Below, piece after piece: positions 2,274 through 43,486 of a stretch of DNA of 59,443 nt. The notes below the pieces were generated by a model. It searched no databases, was not told the origin of the DNA, and saw only the letters and a program-made list of their open reading frames with translations. How positions within the stretch are numbered: position 1 is the stretch's first letter; every line of letters starts with the position of its first letter. The position numbers and the translations under genes are program-made. Source of the DNA: a virus; the IMG/VR virus record IMGVR_UViG_3300034019_001057, positions 1 through 59,443 of that record. One strand, 5' to 3'.

Positions 2274-2298
2274 ATTCGCTTTTTTCTAATTCTAAGGT

Positions 2299-3825
2299 TT
2301 AGTAATCGACGTGTAGTTTTCCTTTGCGCATTAATCCGTTAATCATCCAGACCAAAGCATCAACGCAGTCATCATGACTGCTCACACCAAAATTAGTCAG
2401 CTCTTCAAACATCGCGGTAAAGTTGCGGTAGCGATTGAAGATTAGTTTGCGATCTTCAAACAAACCCATGCACCCACGAAAACGTGCCAACTTATCAGCG
2501 CGGAATCCTTTGACGGGATGCCAATTCAAGTTGTAAAGGCTCTCATTGGTTAGACATACGCGTTTAAAGTCAGCCTCCAAGGAAGCCTGGTACTGCACTG
2601 CTTCCGAATAAATGTCGCACGTTGAATATGTTGGGTAGTAATTGCCATTCTCATCTTGCCCAAGGATGTTCCAGTCGTTGAGAAGCTCTTTAAGCGCATC
2701 AAGTTTCTCAAGGTTTCCCATGACACGTAATCGACGATAGTCGATGACATGAATGCGATCTCCAATGCGACCACCCAATACCATGACAGTGTAGTCATTC
2801 TTCTCCTTGGTGCCCGCCGATAAGTCAACGCCTACCGCAAGACAATCAAATTCAGTTGCAATCTCCGCTTTAACAATCAGCTCTGGTGCCAGGGACAATT
2901 CGTTTTGCCTGACAACTTGATTCATGTACTGAAAAGAAAACGCAATTGGTGCTTGTCGTTTCTTTTCTTTTAGGTAATCAAGTGACCACATGTCAGGCCA
3001 ATATGAAACTTCTTCTCCCGTCTTGGGATCAGTAAGAATAGCAGATAACACAATTTGAAGCCAATTGTTTTGCGTGTTAAATGTCGTTGCATGGATGTCA
3101 TCATGTCGGAAGCGCGTACCAAGGCAAATAGCCCTGGCTCCTTCAAACATCGTTGGTGCAATCACAGCATTCCAGTTGTCCTGCATCTGTTTACGGATGT
3201 CAGGGTTGGAGATGTCTGCGGCAGATTTAATGGCGTCATCAATGATCACCAGGTGTGAACGCTTGGAGGTCACCGAGCCTTTGAGACCTGCGGCACAGAG
3301 TGTAAATTGTTCCTCACCCGTGGTATCAATACCAGCGAACTTGTGGTCAATTGACCAGTACTCATTACTGGTTACGTTCTTGAGAAGACGTACGGTTGGA
3401 AAAACTTCTTGGTACCGCTTGCTTTCAATGATGCGTTTAATAGTTGCTGACTTAGAGCGTGCAATGTCAACCGTATAGGAAAGATAAAGAATCTGTAGTG
3501 GCTTCTTTGCTTGAGTATGCAGACCAATGGCCCATGCTGTAAACAAACCTAAGATTGTGGACTTAGCAGATCCACGTGGTGCCAGGAGATCAACATTGGG
3601 TCCTGCAATTTTTAAAAGACACGCACTATCTTCGCCTGTAACAAAGTGACGATGCCATTCTTTGTGATGTTGAGCCGGAGGTTTGTCCGCAACATAATCA
3701 CAGAAATACCCAAAGTCTTCTCTTGCTTTTTTTAGAGACTCAAGATTACGTGGTACACGAATTTGTTGCCTACGTGCAGCAGCTTGCGCGTTACGTCGAT
3801 ATGCAAGATGTTGATATGCAGGCAC
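2299..3825 (-). CDS. terL: Terminase large subunit
   Basis: 508 residues from a GTG start. It is the packaging motor ATPase plus nuclease. Walker A 'APRGSAKST' is at residues 82-90, Walker B 'LVIIDD' at 192-197, a coupling 'GTRF' near 236-239, the RNase H-like nuclease motif 'VGVDLSAG' at 331-338 and the C-terminal acidic motif 'HDDCVDAL' at 484-491. Length and motif order are those of a complete TerL. It lies upstream of the portal in the leftward transcription unit, the usual order. Confidence 0.93.
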   Translation of the reverse strand: MPAYQHLAYRRNAQAAARRQQIRVPRNLESLKKAREDFGYFCDYVADKPPAQHHKEWHRHFVTGEDSACLLKIAGPNVDLLAPRGSAKSTILGLFTAWAIGLHTQAKKPLQILYLSYTVDIARSKSATIKRIIESKRYQEVFPTVRLLKNVTSNEYWSIDHKFAGIDTTGEEQFTLCAAGLKGSVTSKRSHLVIIDDAIKSAADISNPDIRKQMQDNWNAVIAPTMFEGARAICLGTRFRHDDIHATTFNTQNNWLQIVLSAILTDPKTGEEVSYWPDMWSLDYLKEKKRQAPIAFSFQYMNQVVRQNELSLAPELIVKAEIATEFDCLAVGVDLSAGTKEKNDYTVMVLGGRIGDRIHVIDYRRLRVMGNLEKLDALKELLNDWNILGQDENGNYYPTYSTCDIYSEAVQYQASLEADFKRVCLTNESLYNLNWHPVKGFRADKLARFRGCMGLFEDRKLIFNRYRNFTAMFEELTNFGVSSHDDCVDALVWMINGLMRKGKLHVDY

Positions 3826-11394: not shown

Positions 11395-14300
11395 TCAAAG
11401 TTGGTTTGGGTCAACTTGATAGGTGCGAATTGGGCCACCACGGCGATACGCAGAACGCATTAGATCATCACGCCAATCTTCTGCTCCGGGATTAATACCG
11501 TAGCGCGGAACATTGGTAATAGTTTCCCCACGGAAACCACGTGCTTGAGCTAATTTATCCATACGTGGATAAGCAATCCTCTGTCCTTGGGGAGTGAGCT
11601 GTGTAACAGGAAGACCGCCTGCACCTTGTACAGTTTGTTGAGCCATACCGCCAATGCGAGATAATCCTGGAGATTGTGTTAAAGGACCAATAGGAGCCGG
11701 CTCTAATCCAGTTACAAAAGGTTCCTGGGGAGAGTCGTTAAAGTAACGTGCTCTTTCTCCACGGCGAGTTAGATCATTTAACCTATTGGGTGGATAGAAC
11801 ATATCGCGTCGTATCCCAGGGGTAACATTGGCTGTTGGTTGAACAACAACAGTACCACCAGACATTTCACCAATGAAAGGGCTCAAGGGTACAGGTACGC
11901 TACGACCGGGTTGATATTGTGTATACAACGTACGTTTGCTGGGATCGATGCCAGGGGCGCCCAGTGTTCCTGCAAGACGCAGGGGAGAAACAGTTGCAAC
12001 TTGTGAGACTTGAGCGGGGCTGGCATCATTGAGAGGCATAAGGTTTCCATCCTCATCAATAGGGAAAAGCTCTAATTGACTTGTTACTGAACCTCTAGGT
12101 GTCACGTAAGATTCAGGATCACTAATAGCTTTGGTCTTCATTCCACCAGTGATAGCATCTGCTAAGAAAGCTTGGGCATTGGCTTCAACGCGCTCTGAAA
12201 TGTCACGATTTGCCCGCGTGCCCGCAACGTTATAAACAGTGCCAAGGACATCGGGATTGTCTTGCGTTAAGTAACGCCCTGTCGGGGTATCAACGGAGCC
12301 AATAATACCGGGTCCACGAATAACGCTATTTGCCTTACTTTTGCCTGTGAAAATGACAGGACCTGCTGCTTCTGCGGCTGCTCCTGTATATACATCAGAA
12401 GCACCAAGTACAGGACCTAAGATTGGTTCATTGTCATCTACATAACCAGCCCTAAGTTGGCTAATAGGAGGAAGTACGGGTAAAGGCTCAGAAGGATCAA
12501 CAATCATTCCACGCCTTAACGTTTCCATGGAACGCGCTAAATCTTGGGCTGGTCCAGGGGCAACCACTGGTCGTTGTTGGCTTTGATTGCGAGCTTCTTG
12601 AAGAACTTGCTCCGACGCAGCAACAGAAGCTCTTGCACGATTTAAAGCTGCGGCTTGTAAAGGAGTGGGGTTTGGATTTTTTAAAGCCCTTGTAACTAAA
12701 GTTTGAGAGGCAAGCCGGGTAACAAAAGAATCTAATGATGTGCTAATAGCCTCTTGTTCAGCACCCATCAAATTACCTGGTAGATTTAATTGCCTTGGAT
12801 CCTGATAAGTAGTTAGTCGTTTAGCCGCACGTTCTTTTAATTCTTGGCGGAACGGAGATTGCTGTCCTTCTAACAGCAACGAAGTTAAATCTTCATCAGA
12901 TGCCCTGCCAAGGAGTGGTTTAATCTCGTTAGTCAAAAGTGCTCGTGCTTGAAATTCAGGGCCTTGACCCTGTCTAGCTTTTACTCCTGTATCAGCAGAA
13001 GCATAAATACTGGCATCATCTAAATAAGTAATGTCGCCTACCCTATTAAGTTTGCCACCACGTAAAGCTTTCCCGCGCATTGTGGTCTCAACAACTGGGA
13101 CATCGCCAAGGAGTAAAGATTGTACATCTTCCCCTTCAATGCCAGGTTGTGCTCCAAGTAGTTCATTACGTTGGCGAGCGTTATCAACAAGTTGAAGCTG
13201 ATCGTTTAACTCTTCTCGATACTGTTTATTAAAAGCAGCTTCATTAAATTGTTTAGGATCTGATTGGCTACCTGAAAGCTCAGCAAGAATCCTGTTGGCT
13301 TCATTTTGAAGTAATTGTGCCCTTTGAATACGATCTTGAACTTGTGCAGCCTGTCTTCTGTTTTCTGCAGAGTAATCAAAATCGGTATCAATTTCTTGTG
13401 CACGCAGATATTGGCGAGCCTCTTGCACTAAAGGATCTTGCGCTTGTTCCAGGCCCAGGGCTCTAGGTGAAATACGTACAGCTTGGTTTTGCCGTACGTC
13501 CAGTATGGGTTTACCTTGTCTTACCAAGTCCCGTACGGTTAGACCCTCTGCTTGGTCAACAGGTAATCCATCAGGTAAAGCTTGTGCAACCGTATTGATT
13601 GCGACGTCACTTTCAACACCAGACCATTCGCTGGGATTAGATCCCAACATTGCTTTATAGTCTGCATCTGCTTGCGCTTCTAATTGTGCAATTTGGGTTT
13701 TATCCAGATCTTCGTTACGTGATAGTTGTTGCCACGTACGCCCTGTTTGTTGTGCCGCACCAGATTCAACTGCATCTACTGCTTGGTTTTGTAAATTGCT
13801 GTTTTCTAGTTCACGACGAAAATCAAGAAGCATGTTTTGTGCACGTGCTTTTTCTACTCCTTCGATATTTTGAACGTTTCGAGCTGCACGTCGCATTTCA
13901 GCTTGTGCTTCAGGTGTAGCGGAATAACGTTCCGCTTCTTCTAATTCAAGTTGTTTCGCAAATTCAACATCGTCCAGGAAATCACTGAGATCTACTGTTC
14001 CAGTTGGAATGGCTGGTTGTTTTTGTTGTAAAGATGAAAGCGGTACCATGCGTCCTTGACGACGCACCATTCGTTCCCGTGGGGCGGAAGCAACGACTTC
14101 TGGTAGGTCCGTTACAATGTTGCCTGCCAGTTCTGCCGCTTTACTTGCAAAATAGGAACCGCCACCACCCCTACGGTAAATCTCACCAGTGTTGGGGTCG
14201 GTAATAAGCATTTCTTCGGTCGTACCACCTTGGGGTTTGTATACCCTTGGTAATTCAGACTCAGGCTTGGCAGCTACATTGGCATACACCTGGGAACGTA

Positions 14301-14691
14301 ATTCAGAAGTAGGTGTAGTCGGCGGTACGCTCGGTGGAACATTCGAATATTGCTCTGGTGCATGCGGTGCTACCGGCCGTGGGTTGACAGGTGCACCCAT
14401 GTCGCCCGTAACACGGGTAGGACGACGGTTCGGAAGTTGCGTATTCCCAGTAATGCGTGGGTCGTAACCAGTGTCACCGGTAACGCGAGAACTAAGGTCA
14501 CCCATTTGTACACCACGGGGGCGTTCACTGCGTGCGGCACGGGTTAATGCCTCTGCCGCCGCACCTTTTCCCTTGAGGTTACGTAATGCGTAGTAGCCAC
14601 CAGCTCCAGCAAGGGCGCCTAAGCCAAGAAGACCGGCCATTCCCAAGAAATTAGGACCTTCATTCCGTGATTCGCCGTAATATTCCGCCAT
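11395..14691 (-). CDS. Giant virion protein with N-terminal TM and RITGD repeats
   Basis: 1098 residues, the largest product of the window and first gene of the leftward late block. An AGGAA site precedes its ATG. A Gly/Leu/Ala-rich segment at 13-36 could span a membrane. The motif [RV/RI]TG[D/N] repeats at 69-73, 79-83 and 93-97. The rest is Gln/Arg/Ala-rich helical sequence (about 220-520 and 640-760) alternating with Pro-rich stretches. Size, position and composition suggest an internal core or DNA-ejection protein or a tape-like structural protein. No family match is obvious. Confidence 0.55.
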   Translation of the reverse strand: MAEYYGESRNEGPNFLGMAGLLGLGALAGAGGYYALRNLKGKGAAAEALTRAARSERPRGVQMGDLSSRVTGDTGYDPRITGNTQLPNRRPTRVTGDMGAPVNPRPVAPHAPEQYSNVPPSVPPTTPTSELRSQVYANVAAKPESELPRVYKPQGGTTEEMLITDPNTGEIYRRGGGGSYFASKAAELAGNIVTDLPEVVASAPRERMVRRQGRMVPLSSLQQKQPAIPTGTVDLSDFLDDVEFAKQLELEEAERYSATPEAQAEMRRAARNVQNIEGVEKARAQNMLLDFRRELENSNLQNQAVDAVESGAAQQTGRTWQQLSRNEDLDKTQIAQLEAQADADYKAMLGSNPSEWSGVESDVAINTVAQALPDGLPVDQAEGLTVRDLVRQGKPILDVRQNQAVRISPRALGLEQAQDPLVQEARQYLRAQEIDTDFDYSAENRRQAAQVQDRIQRAQLLQNEANRILAELSGSQSDPKQFNEAAFNKQYREELNDQLQLVDNARQRNELLGAQPGIEGEDVQSLLLGDVPVVETTMRGKALRGGKLNRVGDITYLDDASIYASADTGVKARQGQGPEFQARALLTNEIKPLLGRASDEDLTSLLLEGQQSPFRQELKERAAKRLTTYQDPRQLNLPGNLMGAEQEAISTSLDSFVTRLASQTLVTRALKNPNPTPLQAAALNRARASVAASEQVLQEARNQSQQRPVVAPGPAQDLARSMETLRRGMIVDPSEPLPVLPPISQLRAGYVDDNEPILGPVLGASDVYTGAAAEAAGPVIFTGKSKANSVIRGPGIIGSVDTPTGRYLTQDNPDVLGTVYNVAGTRANRDISERVEANAQAFLADAITGGMKTKAISDPESYVTPRGSVTSQLELFPIDEDGNLMPLNDASPAQVSQVATVSPLRLAGTLGAPGIDPSKRTLYTQYQPGRSVPVPLSPFIGEMSGGTVVVQPTANVTPGIRRDMFYPPNRLNDLTRRGERARYFNDSPQEPFVTGLEPAPIGPLTQSPGLSRIGGMAQQTVQGAGGLPVTQLTPQGQRIAYPRMDKLAQARGFRGETITNVPRYGINPGAEDWRDDLMRSAYRRGGPIRTYQVDPNQL

Positions 14692-15570: not shown

Positions 15571-15759
15571 ATGATCATCTACTTCACCCTGACTACAGAC
15601 ACTGCTGTGTATCAGTTCCAGGTGAACAAGGAGGAGAACTTGGTGCGTGTCACCAAGCTTGTCCTCAAAGGCCAAGAGTGGGGCGAGTGGCATCGCTCCA
15701 CACTTATGACCGTAGACGCAGGGCGCAAGCTCGTGCGTCAACTACAACAGACCAGGTGA
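15571..15759 (+). CDS. Hypothetical protein
   Basis: 62 residues starting MIIYFTLTTD, with an AGAGGA site 7 bases before the ATG. Beta-rich first half. First gene of the tightly packed rightward series. Its last codons form one strand of the T1-1 RNA element. Confidence 0.6.
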   Translation: MIIYFTLTTDTAVYQFQVNKEENLVRVTKLVLKGQEWGEWHRSTLMTVDAGRKLVRQLQQTR

Positions 15760-15819
15760 GTTATAGCTCCCAAGCCAGGTGCAATGCCTGGCTCTGGTCA
15801 TTGCCACAATCCAGTGGCA
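15750..15819 (+). promoter_or_regulatory. T1-1 tRNA-like intercistronic RNA element
   Basis: Closing stem P1 is GACCAG (15750-15755) with CTGGTC (15794-15799). P2 is GAG-TTATAG-CTC. P3 is AGCCAGG-TGCAAT-GCCTGGCT, a T-loop-like hairpin. A TGCCAC/GTGGCA hairpin follows at 15802-15819, 16 bases before the next ATG. The stop codon TGA (15757-15759) lies inside the element. Confidence 0.7.
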
Positions 15820-15835
15820 TCTACTACCTAACACC

Positions 15836-16027
15836 ATGGGTTTCCGTACATCCCTCGGACGTGCATTCTCTGCAGCTACTCAGGCTGCATCACAAGAGTG
15901 GCACGAGTCTCAGCTTGATCGTCGCATCACAGGCGACGTCATCCGTTACAACGACCGTCGTATTACTGGCGACTACGCGCCAATCAACCAACGTAACAAC
16001 TCCCGCGTTACTTATAGCGGGCGCTGA
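15836..16027 (+). CDS. Small protein with two RITGD motifs
   Basis: 63 residues. An amphipathic N-terminus (MGFRTSLGRAFSAATQAA) is followed by RRITGD at 29-34 and again at 41-46. The same motif occurs in late proteins at 7661 and 11395, on the opposite strand with different codons. Start chosen at the ATG after the AC-rich T1 leader. Function unknown; possibly virion-directed. Confidence 0.6.
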   Translation: MGFRTSLGRAFSAATQAASQEWHESQLDRRITGDVIRYNDRRITGDYAPINQRNNSRVTYSGR

Positions 16028-16085
16028 TCCGTAAGCGGACAGGGAGGTGCAAGTCCTCCCATCAGCATTGCCACACTCAGTGGCA
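16023..16085 (+). promoter_or_regulatory. T1-2 tRNA-like intercistronic RNA element
   Basis: P1 GCTGAT (16023-16028) pairs with ATCAGC (16061-16066). P2 is CCG-TAAG-CGG. P3 is GGGAGG-TGCAAGT-CCTCCC, whose loop matches the tRNA T-loop. P1 contains the TGA stop of the gene before. The TGCCAC-ACTCA-GTGGCA hairpin follows. Confidence 0.75.
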
Positions 16086-16103
16086 TCTACACCACACCAT
16101 ACA

Positions 16104-16301
16104 ATGGACTACACCGTCAACATCATCGAGCGTAACGGCGAGTACTTCCTCCAAGAAGTTTTTGCTGTCACTGATTTCCAGTACGTGGAACAGGTGACTG
16201 CAGGTCCGTTCAAAACTCGATGGGAAGCAGACGTTAAGCGCTCATGGTTATACCCAGGTTATCAAGGACTAACCGATGAGCATTGCTGTCTGCAGCACTG
16301 A
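16104..16301 (+). CDS. Hypothetical protein
   Basis: 65 residues (MDYTVNIIERNGEYFLQEVF...), probably alpha/beta. No family recognised. Flanked on both sides by T1 elements. Confidence 0.6.
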   Translation: MDYTVNIIERNGEYFLQEVFAVTDFQYVEQVTAGPFKTRWEADVKRSWLYPGYQGLTDEHCCLQH

Positions 16302-16362
16302 GTACCAAGCGTGATGCCGGGGGATCGAATCCCCCTACTCAGCATTGCCACACTCAGTGGCA
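16298..16362 (+). promoter_or_regulatory. T1-3 tRNA-like intercistronic RNA element
   Basis: P1 CTGAGTA (16298-16304) pairs with TACTCAG (16336-16342). P3 is GGGGG-ATCGAAT-CCCCC, a textbook T-arm, stacked directly on P1 as in tRNA. P2 is weak (GCGTGATGC). The stop TGA lies in P1. The TGCCAC/GTGGCA hairpin follows. Confidence 0.75.
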
Positions 16363-16379
16363 TCTACTTCACACCAACC

Positions 16380-16562
16380 ATGACCGAACACATCGCATCT
16401 ATTGTCATTGCCGCGGCCACAATCATGGGCATTGGTACTCAGGTCACCGTCCATCAATTGGATAAGGCGACCGCAAAGCAATGCATCAATCATGAGTGGC
16501 CAGTAGAAGCACATGACATCCACCTTGCGTGGTGCGCAGCTAACAACTATCCAACCAACTGA
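16380..16562 (+). CDS. Small secreted or membrane protein of cyanophage type
   Basis: 60 residues. A hydrophobic N-terminus (IASIVIAAATIMGIG) looks like a TM or signal segment. The C-terminus has 'CINHEWPVEAHDIHLAWC', a pattern with paired Cys and His that I have seen in small cyanophage proteins. Function unknown. Confidence 0.6.
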   Translation: MTEHIASIVIAAATIMGIGTQVTVHQLDKATAKQCINHEWPVEAHDIHLAWCAANNYPTN

Positions 16563-16623
16563 TCCGTCTAAGCGGGTGACCAGGTGCAAACTCTGGTCCA
16601 GTTATTGCCACAATCCCGTGGCA
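16557..16623 (+). promoter_or_regulatory. T1-4 tRNA-like intercistronic RNA element
   Basis: P1 AACTG (16557-16561) pairs with CAGTT (16599-16603). P2 is CCG-TCTAAG-CGG. P3 is GACCAG/CTGGTC closing a GTGCAAACT loop. The stop TGA lies in P1. TGCCAC-AATCCC-GTGGCA hairpin at 16606-16623. Confidence 0.72.
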
Positions 16624-16641
16624 TTTACTCAACTCAACACC

Positions 16642-16836
16642 ATGTATTACATCGTGATTGACGGCGTGCAGCATGGCTTCTCCTTCCAATGGGAAGAAGC
16701 TCTTATCGAAGCTGCACAACAAGACTTCCAACTTAATTCACCAGAGTTAAACGACGGCATCCAAGGCACGCATGACGTGCAGATCATGTCCTTCCAGGAG
16801 ATGATGGAGGCCGACGACGTTGTGATGGTCATCTGA
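16642..16836 (+). CDS. Hypothetical acidic protein
   Basis: 64 residues (MYYIVIDGVQHGFSFQWEEA...), beta-rich start and acidic helical end. Leader CAACTCAACACC precedes the ATG; no Shine-Dalgarno sequence. Function unknown. Confidence 0.6.
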   Translation: MYYIVIDGVQHGFSFQWEEALIEAAQQDFQLNSPELNDGIQGTHDVQIMSFQEMMEADDVVMVI

Positions 16837-16894
16837 CCAGGCGTGAGCCGGGGGATCAAATCCCCCACACAACAATTGCCACAATCCCGTGGCA
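16819..16894 (+). promoter_or_regulatory. T1-5 tRNA-like intercistronic RNA element
   Basis: P1 GTTGTG (16819-16824) pairs with CACAAC (16868-16873). P2 is GGTC-ATCT-GACC and contains the stop codon. P3 is GGGGG-ATCAAAT-CCCCC. TGCCAC-AATCCC-GTGGCA follows at 16877-16894. Confidence 0.72.
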
Positions 16895-16910
16895 TCTACT
16901 ACACAACACC

Positions 16911-17144
16911 ATGCTGATCTACCAGCCTCAGTTCGATACTCGTCATCGCGTCATCTGGAATGGAGGTGAAAGCTCTATGCTTCACTTCCAGAAGATCAAA
17001 GATGGCGAATGGAAAGATCTTGATTCCATGACATTCATGTCAGGTATACCGACAGGTACCAAGGAGCTTTACTACGAGATGCGCGAGTATTACAACTACT
17101 CCATGACCATGCTCCAGGACATCATGTATGCAGTAGCATTCTGA
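16911..17144 (+). CDS. Hypothetical protein
   Basis: 77 residues, rich in Tyr, Met and Trp (MLIYQPQFDTRHRVIWNGGE). Leader ACACAACACC before the ATG. Function unknown. Confidence 0.6.
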   Translation: MLIYQPQFDTRHRVIWNGGESSMLHFQKIKDGEWKDLDSMTFMSGIPTGTKELYYEMREYYNYSMTMLQDIMYAVAF

Positions 17145-17146
17145 TC

Positions 17147-17219
17147 CCTGCACTTAACCCTTCCGTTGTGGTATGCATGTACTACGACGGTGGGTTTACT
17201 GCAGGACTCAACATCCTGC
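17147..17219 (+). promoter_or_regulatory. T4-1 branched intercistronic RNA element
   Basis: P1 CCTGCA/TGCAGG, P2 AACCC/GGGTT, P3 CCGT/ACGG and an apical GTGGTA/TACTAC stem stack into one long arm. A second hairpin GCAGGA-CTCAACA-TCCTGC follows and shares bases with P1, so the two may be alternative folds. The second copy is at 17853. Confidence 0.6.
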
Positions 17220-17653: not shown

Positions 17654-17851
17654 ATGTCCAACTCATTCAAAGACTCCTGTGTTGCTCTTGTCATTGGCAT
17701 TGGTAGTGGCTTACTCCTATCTACTGGAGTACAGAAGCTACTCAACCAACACTACGAAGAGCACTGCAACGCAAGACCAAACCACAACCTTGTACGTACA
17801 CAAGGATTCCTAGGGGACACGTACTACTGCATCCACAGTAAGTACCTGTAA
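17654..17851 (+). CDS. Small membrane-anchored protein
   Basis: 65 residues. A hydrophobic segment at about 10-27 (VALVIGIGSGLLLSTGVQ) is followed by a Cys/His-containing tail (EHCNARPNHNLV ... YCIHSKYL). Probably a membrane-anchored small phage protein. Function unknown. Confidence 0.6.
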   Translation: MSNSFKDSCVALVIGIGSGLLLSTGVQKLLNQHYEEHCNARPNHNLVRTQGFLGDTYYCIHSKYL

Positions 17852-17852
17852 T

Positions 17853-17917
17853 CTGCACATAACTCTCCCGGTAGTACACATGTATTGCCGGTGAGTTTTC
17901 TGCAGGTCACACCTGCA
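17853..17917 (+). promoter_or_regulatory. T4-2 branched intercistronic RNA element
   Basis: Same architecture as T4-1 with changed stems: CTGCA/TGCAG, AACTC/GAGTT, CCGG/CCGG and an apical TACA/TGTA. Then TGCAGGT-CAC-ACCTGCA. It starts one base after the stop of the preceding gene. Confidence 0.6.
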
Positions 17918-25275: not shown

Positions 25276-25485
25276 ATGGACTACACCGATGATCAGCTCC
25301 TTGCCATGGCCATGGCTAACATTGGTGAATACATCACGGACAACTCACCACAGTACATCCTGATTGAAGACGATCCTCGTAATGAGGATGACTATGATAG
25401 CTGGACTTACGGAATGGAAGTCCTACCTCAAGACCACACTTGGCAGTCAGATTCAATTGACGTAAGTCCAAGTGAGGCCGACTAG
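25276..25485 (+). CDS. Hypothetical acidic protein overlapping a tRNA
   Basis: 69 residues, very acidic (ILIEDDPRNEDDYDSW). Its last ten bases, including the TAG stop, are the 5' end of the tRNA-Leu gene. Function unknown. Confidence 0.6.
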   Translation: MDYTDDQLLAMAMANIGEYITDNSPQYILIEDDPRNEDDYDSWTYGMEVLPQDHTWQSDSIDVSPSEAD

Positions 25486-25551
25486 CCCAACGGCAGAGGC
25501 AAGCGACTTAAAATCGCTACAGTCCCGGTTCGAATCCGAGGTCGGCTACCA
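25476..25551 (+). tRNA. tRNA-Leu (anticodon UAA)
   Basis: Acceptor GGCCGAC/GTCGGCT, D-arm GCC/GGC, anticodon stem AGCGA/TCGCT with loop CTTAAAA, T-arm CCCGG-TTCGAAT-CCGAG (one mismatch) and an encoded ACCA end. The anticodon TAA implies leucine, but the variable loop is only about 5 bases, unlike the long arm of cellular tRNA-Leu. It overlaps the upstream stop codon. Confidence 0.85.
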
Positions 25552-43080: not shown

Positions 43081-43155
43081 CACCTGGGTAGGAGTCGAAC
43101 CTACATCGTCCTGCAGCGGCAGTAACCGTCTTATCCAATTAGCTCGGACCAGGTG
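43081..43155 (-). tRNA. tRNA-like gene with abnormal anticodon arm, isotype undetermined
   Basis: Perfect acceptor stem CACCTGG/CCAGGTG and T-arm GTAGG-TTCGACT-CCTAC. The D-loop keeps AATTGGATA, but the D-stem is only CCG/CGG with a 16-base loop. The anticodon region does not form a 5-bp stem with a 7-base loop. It folds instead as a bulged hairpin with CTGC/GCAG and a CGCT tetraloop. No CCA encoded. It may be decayed or a novel tRNA-like RNA. Confidence 0.6.
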
Positions 43156-43157
43156 AT

Positions 43158-43230
43158 CGGAGATGCAGGATTTGAACCTGCGACCCATTGCTCCCAAAGC
43201 AATTGCGCTACCAAGCTGCGCTAATCCCCG
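43158..43230 (-). tRNA. tRNA-Pro (anticodon UGG)
   Basis: Acceptor CGGGGAT/ATCTCCG, D-arm GCGC/GCGC, anticodon stem ATTGC/GCAAT with loop TTTGGGA giving UGG, T-arm GCAGG-TTCAAAT-CCTGC. No encoded CCA. Only two bases separate it from the tRNA-like gene downstream. Confidence 0.92.
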
Positions 43231-43486
43231 AGTGACCCCCAGGTTTGTGCATCATCCTGAAAACCATTTTGTTGACGTCAACAAAATGGTCTACGTATAG
43301 GAGCTAAGCATAGGGGGTGTTGTTAATAGATGGATGCAGTGTAACTGGCGTACCGACAATCGGGCTGTGAATTAACCAGGCGTATCCAGACAGTGACTGC
43401 ACCTCTATCTTGGGCTCTCCTTCTAGACTATTTGCCTAACGAGTCACCCAAGCTGCCCCATCAGAAAGAGAGGGGGAACTCAATTA
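43231..43486. other. Non-coding stretch upstream of tRNA genes, with a 28-base perfect palindrome
   Basis: 43263-43290 is a loop-less perfect palindrome (ACCATTTTGTTGAC and its complement). It lies 33 bases upstream of tRNA-Pro in the leftward direction, so a protein-binding site is likelier than a terminator. The remaining roughly 195 bases hold no gene I can support. Confidence 0.6.

Follow-up and report, generated by a model that had tools for sequence, protein, structure and literature searches.

A repeated tRNA-like RNA element overlaps stop codons in the gaps between small genes of cyanophages

All five gaps separating the first six small rightward genes of the virus record IMGVR_UViG_3300034019_001057 (IMG/VR) are occupied by one tRNA-like element (TLS) each, and elements of the same architecture recur between genes of cultured cyanophages. 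On balance, we think that these gaps carry a tRNA-mimic punctuation module that is processed by the tRNA-maturation enzymes of the host, with RNase Z as the likeliest cutter. tRNA mimicry and tRNA punctuation are already known; what appears to be new is a repeated module, with the stop codon embedded in it, in the early operons of phages. No description of the element was found in the open-access papers searched.

The window analysed here is the whole of that virus record (59,443 bases). Leftward genes, a terminase gene among them, lie to the left of 15 kb, while rightward genes begin at 15571 and run on into DNA polymerase and primase genes. The six small genes, none with a confident Pfam or PHROGs match, stand at the head of the rightward operon and presumably form the start of the early operon. 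A long leftward open reading frame adjoins the divergent control region and is likewise without a PHROGs match, and the window holds two ordinary tRNA genes (Table 1).

Table 1. Positions of the elements, neighbouring genes and related hairpins (window coordinates unless another genome or locus is named).
Feature	Position	Strand	Details
Leftward open reading frame	11395-14691	-	1098 aa
Six small genes	15571-17144	+	Starts 15571, 15836, 16104, 16380, 16642, 16911; 60-77 aa
TLS 1 (type A)	15750-15799	+	P1 15750-15755/15794-15799; T-arm 15773-15779/15787-15793; T-loop TGCAATG 15780-15786; stop TGA 15757-15759 inside
P4 hairpin of TLS 1	15802-15819	+	TGCCAC-aatcca-GTGGCA, 3′ of discriminator A15800 and T15801
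TLS 2	16023-16066	+	P1 GCTGAT/ATCAGC (6); T-arm GGGAGG/CCTCCC (6); loop TGCAAGT; stop TGA 16025-16027
P4 hairpin of TLS 2	16069-16085	+	
TLS 3	16298-16342	+	P1 CTGAGTA/TACTCAG (7); T-arm GGGGG/CCCCC (5); loop ATCGAAT; stop TGA 16299-16301
P4 hairpin of TLS 3	16346-16362	+	
TLS 4 (type B)	16557-16603	+	P1 AACTG/CAGTT (5); P2 ATCCG/CGGGT; T-arm GACCAGG/TCTGGTC (7); loop TGCAAAC; stop TGA 16560-16562; 78 bits
P4 hairpin of TLS 4	16606-16623	+	
TLS 5	16819-16873	+	P1 GTTGTG/CACAAC; insert hairpins TGGTCATCTGACCA and GGCGTGAGCC; T-arm GGGGG/CCCCC; loop ATCAAAT; stop TGA 16834-16836
P4 hairpin of TLS 5	16877-16894	+	
T2 hairpin	17146-17206		
T2 hairpin	17851-17907		
T2 hairpin, S-EIV1 (L004)	about 2286-2328		
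T2 hairpins, loci L079-L083	early gaps		
tRNA-Leu(UAA)	25476-25551	+	
tRNA-Pro(UGG)	43155-43231	-	

The original prediction held that these gaps share one three-way-junction fold resembling tRNA, and the observation of five tRNA-like spacers in the window is confirmed: all five folds were located where they had been placed, the five closing stems (P1) that it quoted are each present exactly, and the upstream stop codon, TGA in every copy, lies within the structure (Table 1). Measured against dinucleotide shuffles, each element together with the hairpin that follows it (P4) folded with z-scores of −4.45, −4.01, −3.33, −4.14 and −5.23 for TLS 1 to 5, and 0 or 1 of 200 shuffles folded as well as the real element in each of the five cases. 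Some details needed amendment. P1 and the T-arm had been described as separate stems; both exist, but their individual lengths trade off within a constant sum of ~12 bp. A short P2 had been reported in four of the five copies; the insert of TLS 5 holds two hairpins rather than one, TGGTC-ATCT-GACCA and GGC-GTGA-GCC. The ATTGCCAC...GTGGCA hairpin that had been called invariant is so within this array, but relatives elsewhere carry one of several covarying types.

A blastn search returned short matches in the cultured Synechococcus phages S-EIV1 and T7-like S-TIP37, within gaps between small genes. IMG/VR was scanned for the P2 arms of copies 4 (18 bases) and 1, and subsequently for two more classes, which together yielded about 100 stretches; 2 of the 53 that were of copy-4 type and roughly a dozen of the 25 of copy-1 type resembled chance matches and were excluded. 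A type-B covariance model built from 31 distinct sequences—a check that the original prediction had proposed, with a search of phages—made 132 matches, frequently in arrays, across 61 loci. A search by structural descriptor (T-loop, stem, closing stem and N-TT-hairpin) found 132 distinct elements at 84 viral loci (about 130 copies) and had 0 matches in block-shuffled sequence; taken together, the covariance-model matches and the empty shuffled control indicate that the elements are not products of chance. A locus holds up to six elements (seven under looser criteria), always on one strand and with a median spacing of 276 nt.

Several familiar origins for such elements were considered and rejected. 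Among 84,980 genomes of bacteria and archaea, none matched the exact type-B core, and the conserved hairpin CAGCGGAGATNGGNACCGCAC, when scanned for, turned up three times against about two estimated by chance, in each case outside the cyanobacteria and at sites where the covariance model was not significant, which speaks against a host-derived element. Membership in a known RNA family was rejected, as the element regions matched no family in Rfam 15, whether the gathering score or a relaxed threshold was applied. The Rfam tRNA model RF00005 gave no match at E ≤ 1-5 in element-bearing regions and did match the two true tRNAs of the window; a degenerate ordinary tRNA gene was also rejected, most copies being without an anticodon arm and ARAGORN making no call.

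Covariation provides overwhelming evidence of an RNA structure. The 31 distinct type-B sequences have 98.7% of cells paired, with compensatory double changes at 9 of 17 pairs and up to five pair types per position of the T-arm, whereas register slips cut pairing to 24-49% (46-49% for a one-column slide); P2 is invariant in this type only because the search was keyed on it. For the 79 distinct minihelices of all classes taken together, pairing over the 12 coaxial positions reaches 97.6% and falls to 44-56% after a slide of one, and compensatory variation is seen at most positions; these figures, like those for type B, are counts over related sequences rather than independent events and carry no tree correction. 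The original prediction had named a lack of covariation among added homologues as one result that would speak against it; the opposite was found, and its tRNA-like junctions, T-loop hairpin, overlap with stop codons and pairing kept under sequence change are strongly supported by the homologues.

G-U pairs outnumber A-C pairs by 59 to 8, an excess which shows that the selected molecule is the RNA of the coding strand. A single-stranded-DNA (attC-like) or recombination element is unlikely, given this ratio and the finding that no locus has elements on both strands. Another explanation is a mobile or recombination module, the elements having spread as repeats that let small gene cassettes shuffle, with the RNA structure incidental; the gene-plus-element units are modular (~276 nt) and gene order is mosaic between contigs, yet compensatory changes, the G-U bias to the coding strand and the survival of the elements in distant genera whose sequences are not similar leave this explanation very improbable, and covariation has largely refuted it already.

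The acceptor stem (7 bp) and T stem (5 bp) of a tRNA together make 12 bp. In the elements, the split between P1 and T-arm varies (5+7, 6+6 or 7+5) and the total is the same 12 bp, capped by a T-loop of 7 nt that is TTCRANY-like or TGCAANN, as in the acceptor and T stack of tRNA. The distance from T-loop to discriminator was 12 nt in 82 of 101 copies and 13 nt in 17; with 8-17 nt allowed by the descriptor, it was 12, 13 and 14 nt in 110, 21 and 1 of 132 elements, and in 76 copies matched by no search pattern the corresponding numbers were 65, 10 and 1 (8-17 nt again allowed). The two loop-proximal pairs are nearly always G-C (78 of 79 each), like G53-C61 of tRNA, and the outermost P1 pair is weak, most often A-U and about a fifth to a quarter unpaired. 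In most classes the insert is a single short hairpin (8-17 nt), so that the anticodon arm plus D arm of a tRNA is not reproduced. Insert and loop classes co-occur, TGCAA with CCGTNNAAGCGG or GAGTYATAGCTC arms, NTCRA with GGCGTGATGCC arms and TTCGA with GGTGC arms, with few crossed or unassigned cases; such matching is the expected product of a contact between D-loop and T-loop, and we infer a tertiary contact of this kind.

Stop codons occupy a regular place in this structure. In 107 of 130 cases the element contains the end of an upstream open reading frame 35 or more codons long, compared with 74 of 1300 random same-strand stretches (5.7%), and the stop is TGA in 92 of the 107. At loci L011 and L024, TAA replaces TGA and the P1 partner is altered to match. 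In most copies the stop codon lies 2-3 nt inside the predicted 5′ cut, a position that points to a cut on the 3′ side (RNase Z) over one on the 5′ side (RNase P), and the downstream ATG is close by. A fixed stop codon with a start codon nearby would also suit an action on the ribosome without cleavage, in which tRNA mimicry beside the stop codon holds the terminating ribosome or passes it to the start codon ~35-45 nt downstream; most leaders are without a Shine-Dalgarno-like motif, as that scheme would have it. However, no bacterial system of such a kind is known, the acceptor/T-stem ruler would be unnecessary and some cultured copies are placed ahead of the first gene (S-RIP2 and, at ~577, S-SBP1) or after the stop codon (S-SBP1, 929), and we judge the scheme unlikely. 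The ribosome recruitment without a Shine-Dalgarno sequence that the original prediction had offered gained no specific support, an AGGAG-like leader sequence being present in 27 of 55 copies (about half) with one P4 hairpin type.

The 12-bp ruler and the UU 3′ of the discriminator make cutting of the RNase P/Z type the best fit among the roles first suggested. According to a review, the acceptor/T stack is what RNase P, RNase Z and the CCA-adding enzymes measure, and any RNA that presents such a stack is predicted to be processed by RNase P (PMC4919913). Were RNase P the main cutter, 5′ of P1 and perhaps followed by RNase Z, an RNA of ~45 nt would be excised and the upstream message left stop-less; translation of the upstream gene would melt P1 and P2 and so protect the site, and only untranslated messages would be cut. 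The ruler and T-loop suit this enzyme (PMC4919913), phage M3 and C4 RNAs, mRNAs and transient structures are known substrates (PMC11143913), and the place of the stop codons just within the predicted cut agrees with it. We nevertheless consider RNase P a poor candidate for the main cutter, because cutting on the 5′ side would deprive the upstream gene of its stop, the outermost pair of P1 is weak where a strong first pair is preferred, C, U and A are about equal at −1 without a clear preference for U, and ATTGCC follows in place of a 3′ RCC(A) or CCA, although these features are preferences of RNase P and not absolute requirements.

Features on the 3′ side are those expected of an RNase Z substrate. 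P1 is followed by a single unpaired nucleotide, the discriminator (A in 110 elements, C in 14, G in 5 and T in 3), then by TT and a hairpin. As TT was built into the descriptor, the unbiased figure comes from the 31 sequences picked by P2 arm alone, in which T-T is invariant even though its first T mostly stands unpaired; C-TG takes the place of N-TT after P1 in two S-TIP37/S-SBP1 copies. P4 takes several covarying forms in relatives (GCC/GGC, ACC/GGT, CCC/GGG and others), and the first unpaired T stays T. RNase Z cuts directly 3′ of the discriminator, C's in the positions that follow inhibit it (PMC7479834), and activation by a downstream U is the finding given in the title of Pellegrini 2012 (ref. 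74 of PMC4919913). The elements present the pre-tRNA-like features of an RNase Z substrate, namely the elbow, the 12-bp stack, no CCA and an unpaired nucleotide followed by U, in keeping with the enzyme's preference for a non-C, ideally U. A transcription terminator was rejected, there being no U-run 3′ of P4.

Two further observations concern P4. In the H2 type of this hairpin, found at many loci (e.g. L054, L049 and L019), the sequence TTRCCYNCAGCGGAGATRGGYACCGCAC is highly conserved, beyond its pairing needs, and about half of the leaders carry an AGGAG-like motif. The start codon annotated for AHV82201.1 in S-EIV1 (L004, 1269-1505) falls within the P4 hairpin, and covariation of ATGGG/ATAGG in other copies suggests that the true start may lie downstream.

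Among T7-like cyanophages, which include phages of Synechococcus and Prochlorococcus, the same architecture, in unrelated sequence, is found in S-SBP1 (two clear copies and one imperfect), S-TIP37 (two), S45C4 (two), S38C3, S-RIP2, P-SSP10 (two), 9515-10a (three) and NATL1A-7, S45C4 and S38C3 being fosmid genomes and not isolates; copies also occur in cultured S-EIV1, and P-GSP1 and P-SSP7 probably carry less regular ones. The two S-TIP37 elements lie at 986-1033 and 1441-1486 of MH540083.1, and the P-SSP7 candidates at about 603-648 and 975-1046 of AY939843.2. A scan of IMG/VR with the P-SSP10 hairpin found nothing. The orthologous gaps gp01-gp02 and gp02-gp03 hold TLS in S-SBP1, S-TIP37 and S45C4, and another hairpin, T2, in S-CBP3, S-CBP4 and S-RIP2. 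T2 has a conserved internal loop (YRCACTNA / TNNCTGYR) and covarying stems (94.2% paired, score 0.640 compared with 0.231 shuffled), lies near or over stop codons and is common to the window phage, S-EIV1 and several T7-like cyanophages, where it fills slots held elsewhere by TLS. That the two interchange at one place suggests a common task.

In coliphage T7, structured RNase III sites between the first genes yield monocistronic messages, and the gaps that correspond to those of the cyanophages hold such sites; the sharing of slots is only indirect evidence that TLS and T2 are both processing sites. TLS resembles the T7 sites in being a structured element between the first genes of T7-like phages. 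A T7-type RNase III site is a near-continuous duplex of ~20 bp, however, and the longest stack in TLS is 12 bp, within a three-way junction; TLS is an acceptor/T-arm mimic with a T-loop, and T2 may be the closer equivalent. A stable fold and hairpin in each gene gap might instead act uncut, as an exonuclease block protecting 3′ or 5′ ends made by termination or by other nucleases such as RNase E, which rises in P-SSP7-infected Prochlorococcus (PMC9692554). That possibility leaves the 12-bp ruler, the T-loop, the matched insert and T-loop classes and the UU unexplained, and we give it little credence.

In the processing that we favour, the module would begin with a mimic of the half of a tRNA that holds acceptor and T-arm (a T-loop, 12 bp in one coaxial stack and a short D-arm-like insert), followed by the discriminator, UU and a second hairpin, and the host's tRNA-maturation enzymes would recognise it by the distance from elbow to end. 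RNase Z cleavage just 3′ of the discriminator would be the most likely event. The upstream message would retain its stop codon and gain a tRNA-like, possibly CCA-tailed, nuclease-resistant 3′ end, and the downstream message would start with UU and a protective 5′ hairpin, so that a polycistronic early transcript would give stable monocistronic messages, as with RNase III in coliphage T7 and tRNAs in mitochondria. Recognition, cleavage, the choice of enzyme and the stabilising effect are predicted here from sequence.

Likenesses to other systems are partial. Mitochondrial tRNA punctuation also places tRNA-shaped RNAs, as proposed processing sites, between the genes of a polycistronic transcript (PMC8601606), but the phage elements are not tRNAs, mostly lack an anticodon arm, have no Rfam tRNA match, overlap stop codons and sit in early operons, and their cleavage is a proposal. 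The phage RNase P substrates C4 antisense RNA and M3 RNA also resemble tRNA to tRNA enzymes (PMC11143913), but are single RNAs, whereas TLS forms arrays of up to 6-7 in the gene gaps of an mRNA. The 3′ tRNA-like structures of plant viruses share tRNA mimicry on an mRNA and a pseudo-acceptor end (PMC4810235); TLS, in contrast, is internal, repeated and found in DNA phages, with a plain hairpin T-arm, a 7-nt loop and no pseudoknotted acceptor. In MALAT1/mascRNA, a tRNA-like fold sets the end of a long RNA through RNase P and RNase Z, but this is a eukaryotic, single-locus case without stop-codon overlap.

The elements constitute an RNA family missing from Rfam, in marine and freshwater cyanophages that infect the planet's most abundant photosynthetic cells, and a published engineering method for S-TIP37 (REEP; PMC8776855) makes the element directly testable in that phage. 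Tentatively, we also entertain a wider possibility, that of a general mRNA-processing code throughout a widespread family of cyanophages, in which host RNase Z, with or without CCA addition, might make the 3′ ends of nearly every early message, the stop codon being built into the mimic and the whole replacing the RNase III system of T7. If cleavage proves true, this would be tRNA-style punctuation of mRNA in a bacterial virus; more than 100 natural minimal tRNA mimics would be at hand for asking which features are measured by RNase Z, RNase P and the enzymes that add CCA, and the discrete early messages of T7-like cyanophages, in hosts whose RNase E rises during infection, would be accounted for.
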